DNA of 35,956 nt from Candidatus Aquidulcis sp. (GTDB lineage: Bacteria; Chloroflexota; Anaerolineae; Anaerolineales; UBA4823), in contig DYIZ01000058.1 in NCBI GenBank assembly GCA_020723385.1, forward strand, positions 1 through 35,956. The letters run 5' to 3'. Within the stretch, counting starts at the first letter, position 1; each line of letters begins with the position of its first letter. Positions 3,857 to 8,905 of the stretch are shown here, piece by piece. The position numbers and the translations under genes are program-made. Under the pieces are notes generated by a model. The model saw nothing but the letters and a program-made list of their open reading frames with translations, was not told where the DNA came from and made no database searches.

Positions 3857-3936
3857 CAGTCATCAGTCATCAGTTAACAGTAAACGGTGATCAGGAAACT
3901 GCCACTGATAACTGGTCACTGATTACTGATCACTGA
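3857..3936. repeat. CAGTNATCAGT-type inverted tract; supplies the stop of the WD40 gene
   Basis: CAGTCATCAGTCATCAGT units face ACTGATAACTGGTCACTGATTACTGATCACTGA between convergent genes. The last codons of the WD40 lipoprotein (VISNQ and its TGA, 3916-3933) are read from the repeat itself. Confidence 0.75.
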
Positions 3937-5136
3937 AACGAGACCATCCAGCCCGCCAGAAGCCAGCCAGCGCCCGTCAGGGGAGAAAGCCACGCTGGTC
4001 ACGGCGTCGGCGTGTGTGACCACCGCCGTCGCCTGCCAGGTCGCGACATCCCACAGGATCACTTTCCCATTACTGCTCCCGGCAGCCAAGCGGGTCCCAT
4101 CGGGGGAAAAGGCCACGCTCCAGGTGAAATCCTTCGGGCCGCCGGGCAGACTCAAGGTTGCCAATTCATCACCAGTTCCAGGGTTCCAAATTTGCACGGT
4201 GCTGCTGATCTCCCCCGAGGCCAGGAGCGTTCCATCCGGGCTGAAGGCCACGCTGAACACCGATCTGCCCGCATTGAGATTACGCGCCAGCCGCTGCGTC
4301 TCCGTCTCCCGCAGCCGGACGAGCAACCCATCCGCCAGAGCAATCAACGACCCATCCGGGCTGAAGGCTACCGACGGCACACCGTAAGCTGTGCCGATCA
4401 TCTGCGCCGGGTCGGGAAAATCGCACGATCCGGAATCCACCAGCGCCGAAATATCCCACAGGCGCACGATGGCGTCGTTCCCGGCGGAGACCAGCCAGCG
4501 CCCATCGGGAGAGAAGGCCAGGCTGTTCGCGCCGCGCTTGTGAGCGTCGAGCGAGCAAATCAGGCTTCCCGTTGCCACAGGCACGTTGAGCGCAGTCGAA
4601 GCGTTCCAAAATTGCACCGTGCCATCTTTGACTGCTAACCCTAGCAGGCTTCCAGTGGGGTGAAACGCCAGACTGCCGGCATACGCCCCGATTTGCAGCG
4701 TTTGCGTCTCGGCCAGCGTTTCGGCGTCGTACAGGTGAACGGCCTGCCCGGCAGCGACCGCCAGCGTGCGCCCGTCAGGAGAATAAGCCAGGGCAAGCAC
4801 CGGCGCGCCGGGGGGGAAGTGGAGTGTGTAGGGATAGACCTGTGTGTCTATCCGAGCGGCGGTAGCCGAGGGGCGAGGGGCGGTGGGCGTGGAGGGTGGA
4901 GTGTCGAGAGTGGAGGGAGTGGGCGTTTCGGGGTAGACGGTCGTGTTGGGATAGACCTGCGTGTCTATCCGTGTGGTGGTAGGCGTGTTGGGATAGACCT
5001 GCGTGTCTATCCGTGTAGCGGTGGGCGAATAGGGATAGACCGGTGTGTCTATTCGAGGGACGGTAGGCGCGGGGGCCGCGATGCCACAGGCAGCGAGGAT
5101 GAAAATTAGCAGTGCGGCGAGGGGGCGGAGGGGCAT
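3916..5136 (-). CDS. WD40-repeat lipoprotein with repeat-derived linker
   Basis: A predicted secreted lipoprotein of 406 residues. The N-terminus is a short signal peptide with lipobox LAAC (lipid-modified Cys at 17). Residues about 25-105 are a Pro/Thr linker containing four RIDT[PQ]VYP units, three of them spaced by 14 residues. From about 110 to the end there are about seven WD40 blades, most with the S-P-D-G turn (AYSPDGRTLA, AFSPDGRWLV, AFSPDGTRLA and others) and several with LWD or IWN strand ends. WD40 propellers usually serve as protein-binding scaffolds; no enzymatic domain is present. The linker DNA is made of a 22-bp palindrome, and the stop codon lies in another repeat. No clear ribosome site precedes the ATG. 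Confidence 0.85.
   Translation of the reverse strand: MPLRPLAALLIFILAACGIAAPAPTVPRIDTPVYPYSPTATRIDTQVYPNTPTTTRIDTQVYPNTTVYPETPTPSTLDTPPSTPTAPRPSATAARIDTQVYPYTLHFPPGAPVLALAYSPDGRTLAVAAGQAVHLYDAETLAETQTLQIGAYAGSLAFHPTGSLLGLAVKDGTVQFWNASTALNVPVATGSLICSLDAHKRGANSLAFSPDGRWLVSAGNDAIVRLWDISALVDSGSCDFPDPAQMIGTAYGVPSVAFSPDGSLIALADGLLVRLRETETQRLARNLNAGRSVFSVAFSPDGTLLASGEISSTVQIWNPGTGDELATLSLPGGPKDFTWSVAFSPDGTRLAAGSSNGKVILWDVATWQATAVVTHADAVTSVAFSPDGRWLASGGLDGLVSVISNQ
4584..4602. repeat. Short dispersed-repeat-like segment inside a WD40 blade
   Basis: On the coding strand this reads GCTTCGACTGCGCTCAACG, which resembles a widely dispersed bacterial intergenic repeat. It encodes ASTALN in a blade. This is recognition from memory and from one copy only. 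Confidence 0.3.
4832..5054. repeat. Four in-frame copies of a 22-bp palindrome
   Basis: Copies lie at 4832-4853, 4949-4970, 4991-5012 and 5033-5054, with arms GGATAGAC and GTCTATCC around a six-base loop CTGTGT, CTGCGT or CGGTGT. The last copy has one arm mismatch. The last three are 42 bp apart, giving a 14-residue protein period. A fifth, intergenic copy lies at 8735-8756. Confidence 0.88.
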
Positions 5137-5215: not shown

Positions 5216-5242
5216 CTTCATAACAGGACAAGCGAGGTTGAC

Positions 5243-5497
5243 ATGAATACAGTACGAGTTGATTTATCTTTCGACCAGATCAAGCAAGCCTTACGCCGCC
5301 TGCCGGCGACGGAAAAAGCAGCTCTTTGGCGTTTTCTGGATGAAGATTTGGACCGGGCAGCCATCGCCCGGCGGTTTGCATCCACTGTCAACGCCATTCG
5401 CAAGGCCAACGCCAACCTGGGGGAGGATGAGGTTATGGCAGATGCCGTGAGGACTACCCGCGAAGTGCGCCGTGCAAAAAATCGTTCTGGACACTAA
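5243..5497 (+). CDS. Probable antitoxin partner of the PIN toxin
   Basis: An 84-residue, charged, mainly helical protein without signal or membrane segments. I do not recognise a named family with certainty. Position argues for the antitoxin role: it immediately precedes and overlaps a PIN-domain gene by 26 nt, the usual order of toxin-antitoxin pairs. The N-terminal MNTVRVDLSFDQIKQAL could be a short beta strand plus helix for DNA binding or dimerisation, and the basic tail REVRRAKNRSGH could contact the toxin. ATG at 5243 has GAGG five bases before it; an upstream in-frame ATG at 5159 lacks a ribosome site and precedes the TATAAT box. Confidence 0.7.
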   Translation: MNTVRVDLSFDQIKQALRRLPATEKAALWRFLDEDLDRAAIARRFASTVNAIRKANANLGEDEVMADAVRTTREVRRAKNRSGH

Positions 5498-5900
5498 TGT
5501 GCTGGTCAGCGGGGTGATCGCCTCAGGATATTCCGCTTCGATCCTGAATGCCATCCACCGCGAGGATATCAAGCTGGTTACTTCAGCGCATCTCCTCGAA
5601 GAATTCAGCGATGTGATCGCGCGTCGTCGTATCGCCCGTAAATATCCCCAGGCTGCCGAAAACGCCGAAATCTTGCTCGACTTTCTGCGCGCCTTTGCCA
5701 TCCTTGCGCCGGGCATCCCGGAGCCTTACGCCATCAGCCCCGATCGTGACGACGATTACGTTCTGGCCTGCGCGCTGGATGAAAATGCGGATTGCATCGT
5801 TTCGGGTGATCCGCATTTGTTGAACTTGAAATCCTACCGGGGTATCCCGATTATGACGCCGCGCGAGTTCGTCGAGGGAATGCTCAAAGCCTCCAAATAA
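5472..5900 (+). CDS. PIN-domain toxin (COG1569-like)
   Basis: A 142-residue PIN-fold protein, a predicted Mg2+-dependent RNase and likely toxin of a type II pair. The acidic active-site residues are visible: D7 in VLDTNVLVSG, E43/E44 in HLLEEFSDV, the D91-D95 cluster in PDRDDDYVLACA and D113 in VSGDPHLL. This is the order seen in the 'putative toxin-antitoxin, PIN family' group. The start is GTG at 5472, inside the end of the antitoxin gene, in keeping with translational coupling. The target RNA is unknown. Confidence 0.85.
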   Translation: MQKIVLDTNVLVSGVIASGYSASILNAIHREDIKLVTSAHLLEEFSDVIARRRIARKYPQAAENAEILLDFLRAFAILAPGIPEPYAISPDRDDDYVLACALDENADCIVSGDPHLLNLKSYRGIPIMTPREFVEGMLKASK

Positions 5901-6159: not shown

Positions 6160-8673
6160 TCACCCGCTCACCAATTTCGCCACCGTCACCCCATCCCCCC
6201 CCTCCTTATCCCCTCCCCCCTCGAACGATTTCACATTCGGATGCTGGCTGAGCGCCTCGCGCACGGCCAGGCGCAGCTTGCCCGTGCCTTTGCCGTGAAT
6301 GATGCGCACCCACGGCAACCCGGCCAGGTAGGCGCGCTCCAAATAACGGTCGAGGTCCGAGAGGGCGTCTTCGGCCAGCTTGCCGCGCAGATCCAGCTCG
6401 AGACCGGGAGACTCGACCGTGGACGGCAGACCGCTTACCACCGCTGTTTTTTCCGCCGTCTGCTGTCCGCTGTCGGCGGTCTCTTCGACTTCGCCGACGG
6501 CCTGCAAATCCGTCCGCCGCGCCCGGATGCGCATCATCCCCACCTGCACCTCGGCCTCGTCTTCGCCGAGGGAGATGATGACGCCCTGCATGTTGAGCGT
6601 CTTTAACCGGACTTTGCTGCCTAAGGCGACCGTTGACCGTTGACTGTTGACCGTTGACCGCCGACCACCGTCCACGGTCTTCGGTCTGCGGTCTACGGTC
6701 GGCATTTGTTCTTGCAGCGTCTCCACCTTCTCCTCCACCGCCTGCACCACTTCCAACGGCTGGCGGGCGCGCTGAAGCTGGCGGCGCGCCTCTTTCAACT
6801 CTTCCTGCAATTCCTGGAGCTGCGCGTCGGCCTCGAGGCGCGCTTTTTCCAGGATGGCGCGGCGCTCGTCTTCGATCTTGTCCATCCGGGCGGATAACTC
6901 GGCGTGCAGCTTCTCGGCCTCGAACTTCGCCCGGTCGGCGGCGCCGCGCGCTTTGCGGGAGGCGTCGCGCTGTCGGTGGATTTCGTCGAGCATACTTTCG
7001 GCGCGCTGATCGTCCGGGCTGATCTCGGCGCGGGCGTCGGCGATGATCTCGTCAGGCATGCCCAGCCGCTTGGCAATCGCCAGCGCGTTCGAGCGGCCCG
7101 GCAGCCCAATGGTGAGATGGTACGTCGGGCGCAGAGTGTGAAGATCGAACTCGACCGAGGCGTTGACAACGCCGGGCGTGCCGTGGGCGTAGGCTTTCAG
7201 CTCCGGGTGATGGGTCGTCACCAGGGTGGTGATGCCCCTCTCTAACAGATGGGACAACAGCGCCCGTGCGAGGGCCGCGCCCTCCTGGGGGTCAGTCCCC
7301 GCCCCCAATTCGTCGAGGATCACCAGCGAATGGCGGTCGGCGCGCTTGAGGATGCGGATGATGTTGGTGATGTGCCCTGAAAACGTCGAAAGCGACTGCT
7401 CGATAGACTGCTCGTCGCCGATGTCGGCGTAAATGTCGTTGAACAGGCTGATCTGCGAGCCGGAGCGGGCCGGGATGTGCAGCCCCGACTGCGCCATCAA
7501 TGCCAGCAGGCCGACCGTCTTCAGCGCCACGGTTTTGCCGCCGGTGTTGGGGCCGGTGACGACCATCGAGAAGGTTTGATCGTCCAGCTCGACATCCACC
7601 GCCACCACCGTCGCCGGGTCGAGCAAGGGGTGGCGCGCCCCCGACAGGCGGATGACTGTCCCGGGGTGACGGATGACCGCTGTCGGTTGACGGTTGACGG
7701 TTGACGGTTGACCGTCGTCGGAGGCGCCGCTCTCATCGGTCTTCGGTCTACGGTCTACGGTCGCTTTCAACTCGCGCGGCTTCCCAATCGGCACAAGCAC
7801 CGCCGCGCTGGCTTTCAAATCGTCGGAAAATTTGGCGCGGGCGAAGATGAAATCTATCTCGGCGATGACGTTGACGGTGTGCAGGAGCAGCTCGGCGTTC
7901 ATCCCTACCTGCGACGACAGCTCGGCCAAAATGCGGCGTTCTTCGTCGCGTTCAGCCAGTTGCAGCTCGCGGTATTCGTTGTTCAATTCGACGATGACAA
8001 GCGGCTCGACGAACAGCGTGGCCCCCGAAGCGGACTGGTCGTGAACGACCGAGCGGATGCGGCCCTTGAACTCGGCGCGCAGCGGGATGACGTAGCGCCC
8101 GTCGCGCTGGGTGATGATGGCTTCTTGCAGCAGCGGGCCGTTCTTGGGATCGGCGACCATGCGCTGGAGCTTCGACATCAGCCGGTCGTAGGCGATGCGG
8201 ATGTCGTGGCGAATCTGGGCCAGCCTGGGGGAGGCGCTGTCGAGGATTTCGCCGCGGTCGTTGAGGGTACGCGTGATGGCTTCGACCAGCCCGAGAGGGG
8301 GCGGCATCTGCGCGGCGAGATCGCACAGCAGCGGAAACTGGCTGGTGAGCTTCTCGAACTGCCGCGCCAAACTGCGGGCGGCGACGAGGGTGGATTTCAC
8401 GTCGAGCAGATCCACCGGCATCAGCACGCCGCCGTGCCGCGCCAGGTCTACCGCGGCGCGTATATCGCGCGCGCCGCCGATGGTGGCGTCCGGGCGGGTG
8501 GTGAGGAACTGCACCGCCTCGGTGGTCTCGGCCTGGCGGCGATTCGCTTCGTCAATGTTGCGCGTGGGCCGCAGGGCGAGGGTTTTATCGCGTGAAGCGG
8601 CAAAAGCCGTGTACCCGGCGAGCCGTTCGAGGATTTTGTGGTATTCGAGGGTGTTGAGGGTTTTGTCGTCCAT
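6160..8673 (-). CDS. mutS2: MutS2 family ATPase/Smr endonuclease
   Basis: MutS2, an ATPase of the MutS superfamily that acts on branched DNA or on collided ribosomes in different bacteria. In the 837 residues are the N-terminal core starting KTLNTLEYHKILERLAGYTA, the Walker A GPNTGGKT near 373-380, Walker B VILDELGAGTDPQEGA, a coiled coil rich in E/R/A at about 580-650, and a C-terminal Smr domain with LDLRG (about 759) and HGKGTG. Three low-complexity stretches are unusual: residues about 304-340, 658-683 and 729-755, each encoded by a heptamer-repeat tract. All reading frames stay open through them, so the gene looks intact, but no ribosome site is obvious before the ATG at 8673. Confidence 0.92.
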   Translation of the reverse strand: MDDKTLNTLEYHKILERLAGYTAFAASRDKTLALRPTRNIDEANRRQAETTEAVQFLTTRPDATIGGARDIRAAVDLARHGGVLMPVDLLDVKSTLVAARSLARQFEKLTSQFPLLCDLAAQMPPPLGLVEAITRTLNDRGEILDSASPRLAQIRHDIRIAYDRLMSKLQRMVADPKNGPLLQEAIITQRDGRYVIPLRAEFKGRIRSVVHDQSASGATLFVEPLVIVELNNEYRELQLAERDEERRILAELSSQVGMNAELLLHTVNVIAEIDFIFARAKFSDDLKASAAVLVPIGKPRELKATVDRRPKTDESGASDDGQPSTVNRQPTAVIRHPGTVIRLSGARHPLLDPATVVAVDVELDDQTFSMVVTGPNTGGKTVALKTVGLLALMAQSGLHIPARSGSQISLFNDIYADIGDEQSIEQSLSTFSGHITNIIRILKRADRHSLVILDELGAGTDPQEGAALARALLSHLLERGITTLVTTHHPELKAYAHGTPGVVNASVEFDLHTLRPTYHLTIGLPGRSNALAIAKRLGMPDEIIADARAEISPDDQRAESMLDEIHRQRDASRKARGAADRAKFEAEKLHAELSARMDKIEDERRAILEKARLEADAQLQELQEELKEARRQLQRARQPLEVVQAVEEKVETLQEQMPTVDRRPKTVDGGRRSTVNSQRSTVALGSKVRLKTLNMQGVIISLGEDEAEVQVGMMRIRARRTDLQAVGEVEETADSGQQTAEKTAVVSGLPSTVESPGLELDLRGKLAEDALSDLDRYLERAYLAGLPWVRIIHGKGTGKLRLAVREALSQHPNVKSFEGGGDKEGGDGVTVAKLVSG
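6409..6488. repeat. Inverted heptamer tract in mutS2, before the Smr domain
   Basis: GACCGTGGACGGCAGACCGC units face CCGTCTGCTGTCCGCTGTCGGCGGTC units. It encodes about residues 729-755, a Ser/Thr/Ala-rich linker just before LDLRG. Confidence 0.65.
6628..6701. repeat. Inverted heptamer tract in mutS2, after the coiled coil
   Basis: Nearly five GACCGTT units (6628-6660, one base change in the third) are followed by four nCGGTCT units (6674-6701). It encodes residues about 658-683, with repeated STVN and PTVD. Confidence 0.85.
7655..7762. repeat. Inverted heptamer tract in mutS2, before the ATPase domain
   Basis: Four perfect CGGTTGA heptamers (7684-7711) are followed by CGGTCTT, CGGTCTA, CGGTCTA and CGGTC (7737-7762). 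It encodes residues about 304-340, ahead of the GARHPLL segment that precedes Walker A. Confidence 0.88.
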
Positions 8674-8705: not shown

Positions 8706-8757
8706 GCGTGGAGGGTGGAGGGTGGAGGGTGTCGGGGTAGACCTATGTGTCTACCCC
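8706..8757. repeat. GGTGGAG tandem plus intergenic copy of the 22-bp palindrome
   Basis: Tandem GTGGAGG units (about 8708-8730) lead into GGGTAGAC-CTATGT-GTCTACCC (8735-8756). The same two elements, GTGGAGG runs and the palindrome, also adjoin each other inside the WD40 gene linker (about 4884-4970). Confidence 0.75.
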
Positions 8758-8872
8758 CGCGGAGGCCGCGAGGTGAAGGGCGAGGGCCGTGGGCCGAGAG
8801 CCGACCGCTGAAAGCTGCTATGCGGGCGGAGTCTACCACACACGACGATGGAGGGGGAGGGCTGGTTAAGCA

Positions 8873-8905
8873 AGACTTCCGAAGTCTTCGAGACTTCGGA
8901 AGTCT
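8873..8905. repeat. Nested perfect palindrome
   Basis: AGACTTCCGAAGTCT (8873-8887) pairs perfectly with AGACTTCGGAAGTCT (8891-8905) over the loop TCG, and each arm is itself palindromic around its middle base. It lies in the gap between mutS2 and the gene remnant, just downstream of the latter's stop. Confidence 0.85.

Follow-up and report, generated by a model that had tools for sequence, protein, structure and literature searches.

A GTAG-tagged REP element reads in frame in the linker of a WD40 lipoprotein and is associated with a RAYT gene in the same genome

The WD40 lipoprotein gene and the palindromes of the window

Here, we analyze a window of 35,956 nucleotides (contig DYIZ01000058.1 of Candidatus Aquidulcis sp., assembly GCA_020723385.1), in which the minus-strand gene at 3916..5136 encodes a lipoprotein with the lipobox ILAAC, a 99-aa linker, and a WD40 β-propeller. 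The product reads MPLRPLAALLIFILAACGIAAPAPTVP-RIDTPVYPYSPTAT-RIDTQVYPNTPTTT-RIDTQVYPNTTVYPE...RIDTQVYPY..., followed by the WD40 repeats. In the linker, a 22-bp palindrome is present in four in-frame copies; read as RIDTxVYP units behind the lipobox cysteine, they supply approximately one-third of this flexible segment. Three copies are exact (4832-4853, 4949-4970, and 4991-5012) and one has a single mismatch (5033-5054); with start-to-start distances of 117, 42, and 42 bp, three of the four stand in 42-bp register. A fifth copy, with two mismatches (GGGTAGAC/GTCTACCC), lies alone between genes at 8735-8756. The four in-frame copies, the 42-bp register, and the copy between genes are as the initial annotation had described them. 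Dinucleotide shuffles give an expectation of 0.08 copies and reached five copies in 0 of 100 trials, and the reversed control described below contained no units; thus, a chance palindrome is ruled out.

The repeat unit exceeds the palindrome by a 4-nt foot directly on its 5′ side; the whole is a 26-nt GTAG-tagged REP element, GTAG-GG(NNNN)AC-CTRYGT-GT(N'N'N'N')CC, with the palindrome as its hairpin. Unit 1 (4828..4853, plus strand, as are all units of the window) matches this pattern with 0 mismatches, codes for IDTQVYPY on the minus strand, and consists of the foot GTAG, the only intact foot in the linker, and the hairpin GGATAGAC-CTGTGT-GTCTATCC (−5.9 kcal/mol, z −4.3). Unit 2 (4945..4970) has the foot GTTG and 1 mismatch (−5.9 kcal/mol, z −5.5). 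Unit 3 (4987..5012), also with GTTG, is its tandem duplicate, with 38 of 42 nt identical and the REP part identical throughout (26/26). Unit 4 (5029..5054; foot ATAG, 3 mismatches) has decayed, in that the first two stem pairs are weak or lost and the predicted fold reaches only −2.6 kcal/mol. Units 2 to 4 form three 42-bp units in register (4945..5070), each composed of the 26-nt REP and a 16-nt spacer and amounting to 14 codons. The segment at 4930..4944 (GGGGTAGAC...), which codes for TVYPE, is by its sequence probably a REP left half; comparable half-units stand in tandem beside full REPs elsewhere in the genome (C137, C202, C133, and C233). The unit outside genes (8731..8756; foot GTCG, stem GGGTAGAC/GTCTACCC) lies 58 bp upstream of the start of MutS2 and in no open frame of at least 150 aa. 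Single-strand folding gives an 8-bp hairpin in the units at 4828, 4945, and 8731 (−5.9 to −6.9 kcal/mol). Rfam had no match anywhere in the window.

Orthologous WD40 proteins of the family have P/T/S-rich linkers of 69-97 aa, in which neither the palindromes nor the RIDTQVYP peptide was found. At 99 aa here against 69-97 aa there, the REPs made up or replaced the linker more than they extended it.

Other features accompany these genes. Beside the WD40 gene, on the plus strand at 5225-5900, two genes form a unit that resembles a VapBC-type toxin–antitoxin pair and includes a PIN-type toxin-like ORF (MQKIVLDTNVLVSGV...). The MutS2 ORF contains two in-frame insertions (6632-6705 and 7665-7770) of another dispersed repeat of the GGTTGAC/GGTCTACGGTCTTCGGTC type, with the peptides TVDRRPKT...STVNRQPT and TVDRRPKTVDGG...STVNSQRST; in the 1.28 Mb of this genome that were sampled, GGTTGACGGTTGAC was found at 16 sites. 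A long palindrome, GACTTCCGAAGTC...GACTTCGGAAGTC, at 8872-8905 has its sole occurrence there in the sampled genome DNA.

The REP family and its genomic locations

Several findings identify the element as a family of hairpins in which the loop is CTRYGT and the 8-bp stem varies. When bacterial and archaeal genomes were scanned for the core, exact matches came from at least 119 stretches in many phyla, with hosts including Flammeovirga, relatives of Beggiatoa, Acidobacteria, Deltaproteobacteria, Cyanobacteria, Anaerolineae, and others. When aligned by their flanks, these matches gave one consensus, GTAG-GGGTAGAC-CTRYGT-GTCTACCC, often with an inverted partner next to it; the GTAG foot consensus was drawn from 134 core matches and 21 units of the genome under study. 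The latter 21 units were obtained with a generalized pattern (stem free, at most 1 mismatch) that found 0 units in the reversed control; their feet are mainly GTAG, GTTG, GTCG, and GTGG, with one ATAG. With other stems, the element was also detected in 45 of the 396 genomes sampled from the class, with a maximum of 63 units in one genome, while chance control matches across this class-wide scan amounted to only ∼5 overall. A site at C209:7874 (TTGGGATAGACC), considered as an extra copy, is a half site within ordinary coding sequence and not a REP.

Among 29 units, 99.1% of the stem cells are paired, and 35 double changes, a count reached in 0 of 500 shuffles, compare with a shuffled mean of 8.6; shifting the pairing by 1 to 3 columns abolishes the signal. 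Given such strong covariation, the element is copied and inherited as a hairpin and not as a peptide; together with the cross-phylum matches, the covariation rules out a repeat private to this protein. Thus, the proposal of a dispersed palindromic element that is not merely a protein repeat is confirmed by 21 units at 15 places with a covarying stem.

These features agree with the GTAG-tagged REP families of Di Nocera et al. (2013; PMC3733652). There, as here, the units have a GTAG foot, a covarying stem, and a short loop, and occur as singles, as head–head dimers, and in groups reiterated with flanking DNA. In our genome, the foot precedes the hairpin with degenerate positions 2 and 3, the stem is compensated, and dispersed singles are accompanied by inverted dimers at C133, C137, and C233. 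Small GTAG-REP families have also been described. The report counts intragenic units, including multiunit cases, among the established characters of GTAG families (its Table 1), names Chloroflexi among the phyla concerned, and proposes flexible linkers and loops as tolerant sites (PMC3733652). Rickettsia palindromic elements likewise lie in frame inside genes but, according to the same text, are CGTC-tagged (RPE-4 and RPE-6) or longer (RPE-1) (PMC3733652); CGTC repeats are without an associated transposase gene. Two differences stand out from the 24 GTAG-tagged families described there: most of their REPs are extragenic, whereas at least two-thirds of the places here are intragenic, and one stem variant, GGATAGAC, is here confined to linkers behind a lipobox (PMC3733652). 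What is new is this lipoprotein-restricted stem variant and the in-gene array; the element type, in-frame REPs, and REPs in RAYT genes have already been published.

The 15 places comprise 10 in frame in Pfam-confirmed genes, two in unconfirmed open frames (C61 and C218), and three outside genes (8731, C2, and C30), so that 10 to 12 of 15 are intragenic and the mainly extragenic location typical of, but not defining for, GTAG-tagged REPs is not seen. The hosts are a GNAT acetyltransferase, a RAYT, a radical SAM protein, an exonuclease/phosphatase domain protein, three lipoproteins (WD40, PGA_cap, and SBP_bac_5), and a 1600-aa flavoprotein with REPs at three separate places, two of them outside or at the edge of Pyr_redox_2 and the third close to where the NAD-binding Pyr_redox part begins; one flavoprotein REP lies between Fer4_20 and Pyr_redox_2. 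The initial annotation had envisaged an intergenic mobile palindrome colonizing a gene at one tolerant position. The mobile-element part of this idea largely stands, but the intergenic and single-position parts do not, with 10 of 15 places in confirmed genes of many kinds. Many further loops and linkers besides this one hold the same REPs. We infer that linkers and loops tolerate REP insertions, which would account for their persistence. Elsewhere in the order, in-frame REPs are likewise frequent. By contrast, of the 134 full units in the genomes reached by the cross-phylum scan, 12 lie in open frames of at least 150 aa. This comparison is rough, because that scan admitted only the GTAGAC stem, three of whose six frames contain stops, and the genomes are mostly AT-rich. 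At C202 and C233, full units are adjoined by tandem half-units, whose 18-bp steps keep the frame. The repeat surveys used a 1.28-Mb sample of genome stretches, some contigs of which were picked for holding REPs; therefore, REP density was not estimated from it. The REP on C30 (L241 248-273) lies in the leader upstream of a probable seryl-tRNA synthetase gene; this leader has a T-box-leader-like stretch that matched no Rfam family.

RAYT genes and their association with the REP family

The initial annotation had advised a search for a RAYT-type transposase, and such a gene is present in the same genome. An ORF on contig C133 has a Y1_Tnp domain (Pfam E 7.9e-6), and within its frame the loop that follows MPNHFHGII holds a head–head (inverted) REP pair of this family together with a tandem array. 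No further pattern-matching REPs were found on contig C133 outside this ORF. The genome thus combines a TnpA_REP gene and cognate REPs, as in a REPtron. In three relatives (G073, G229, and G245; ∼70% identity), the corresponding loop likewise contains REPs of this family; the majority of the remaining RAYTs in the order have different palindromes at that site. In a tree of 24 RAYTs, built with the REP-bearing loop removed, the carriers of CTRYGT REPs cluster with one label change, and 0 of 500 shuffles gave so low a number; support for the clade is moderate (85/78). This clustering links the RAYT to the CTRYGT family, on which it may act.

REPs inside RAYT genes are not a new discovery but a hallmark of subclass 2.4, or group 4, of TnpA_REP (Quentin et al. 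2018; PMC6006769). Our case agrees with this subclass in the in-frame REPs between the HUH and Tyr motifs, in the variable loop, and, for members with a GGG stem, in the three G-C pairs at the stem base (PMC6006769). It differs in the stem base of the linker copies, which is GGA; we assigned the subclass from the insert position and not by profile.

A second RAYT-like ORF of 280 aa (L241; C30:10709-10972, minus strand) contains VGATRRG-type repeats, three in tandem, at the corresponding loop, in which no palindrome of the tested kind was detected.

Origin of the linker array and its stem variant

We favor a reading, at a probability of about 0.88, in which the palindrome is a GTAG-tagged REP moved by a RAYT, which entered the WD40 linker and whose 42-bp unit was then duplicated. 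The REP would be a non-autonomous element spread by a RAYT (TnpA_REP, HUH/Y1), most likely the one encoded on C133. Single-strand transposition by this protein would have placed one or more REPs into the linker in the frame IDTQVYP[YN], and the 42-bp unit of REP and 16-nt spacer, being exactly 14 codons, would have been tandemly duplicated after insertion. Transposition is the most likely step by analogy with the published biochemistry of other RAYTs, for which binding and cleavage of the REP hairpin on single-stranded DNA were reported in vitro (PMC8266576). Efficient cleavage there needs GTAG, and a GTTG foot abolished it in one system (PMC8266576), so that units 2 to 4 may be duplication products and immobile.

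The exact GGATAGAC stem bears on how the copies reached their present sites. In this genome, it occurs only in the linkers of the three lipoproteins, always in one frame and at a short distance behind the lipobox, and it was not found elsewhere in a phylum sample of 400 genomes (399 other genomes). The possibility raised earlier that the palindrome is confined to one gene family and the copy at 8735 thus neither clearly holds nor clearly fails: this stem is restricted to lipoprotein linkers here, but the three lipoproteins are unrelated. The WD40 and C137 linkers share a 48-nt stretch of REP plus spacer (87.5%) and, separately, a 24-nt stretch (23/24); these copies may therefore owe their spread to recombination of one linker with another and not to transposition. 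In its strong form, in which the variant now spreads between lipoprotein linkers by homologous recombination or gene conversion and not by transposition of each copy, this explanation is somewhat doubtful. The restriction of every exact unit to three lipoprotein linkers, the common spacer CGCCCACCGCTAC and 24-nt stretch, and the absence from the other 399 genomes fit it; however, the remainder of the genes is unrelated, C202 has only REP and half-REP sequence in common, and the shared spacers could be other dispersed repeats.

Two further explanations fare considerably worse than transposition followed by duplication. Regulatory or terminator-like structures, in mRNA or DNA, in the 5′ part of genes would be in line with the stable folds and with positions near gene starts in the three lipoproteins, but other in-gene REPs are placed in the middle of genes or toward their 3′ ends, and the window copies have no U-tract and matched no Rfam family; we consider this highly improbable. 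Hardly credible at all is that selection acts on the peptide RIDTQVYP, with the palindrome arising incidentally from the codons used. The same Cys-free frame in three lipoproteins, compatible with P/T-rich linkers, would suit it; yet the compensated hairpin is also found outside genes, in frames other than this one, and across many phyla, orthologous linkers keep the P/T/S composition but neither peptide nor palindrome, and covariation and the copy at 8731 largely refute it.

In the lipoprotein frame, the usual stem is read as ADTQVCP and the GGATAGAC variant as IDTQVYP, without Cys; this Cys-free reading fits peptide selection in an exported linker, although three places are few. It is conceivable, if rather speculative, that the variant was domesticated in this lineage as a lipoprotein-linker module through compensated changes from ADTQVCP to the Cys-free IDTQVYP and in-frame multiplication, in 42-bp or 18-bp steps, behind the lipobox cysteines of lipoproteins that are otherwise unrelated. 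If the variant is selected, a selfish DNA hairpin would be evolving under DNA-pairing and peptide constraints at once. With the family, the transposase gene, and the host genes in one genome, this is a well-resolved example of protein sequence contributed by a tiny transposable hairpin.

Heptamer tandem arrays (GGGGATA, TCAGTGA, and ACGTTTT) are also dispersed in the genome (G000 sample, e.g., L248, L253, L259, and L271), and we take them to resemble cyanobacterial STRR repeats.
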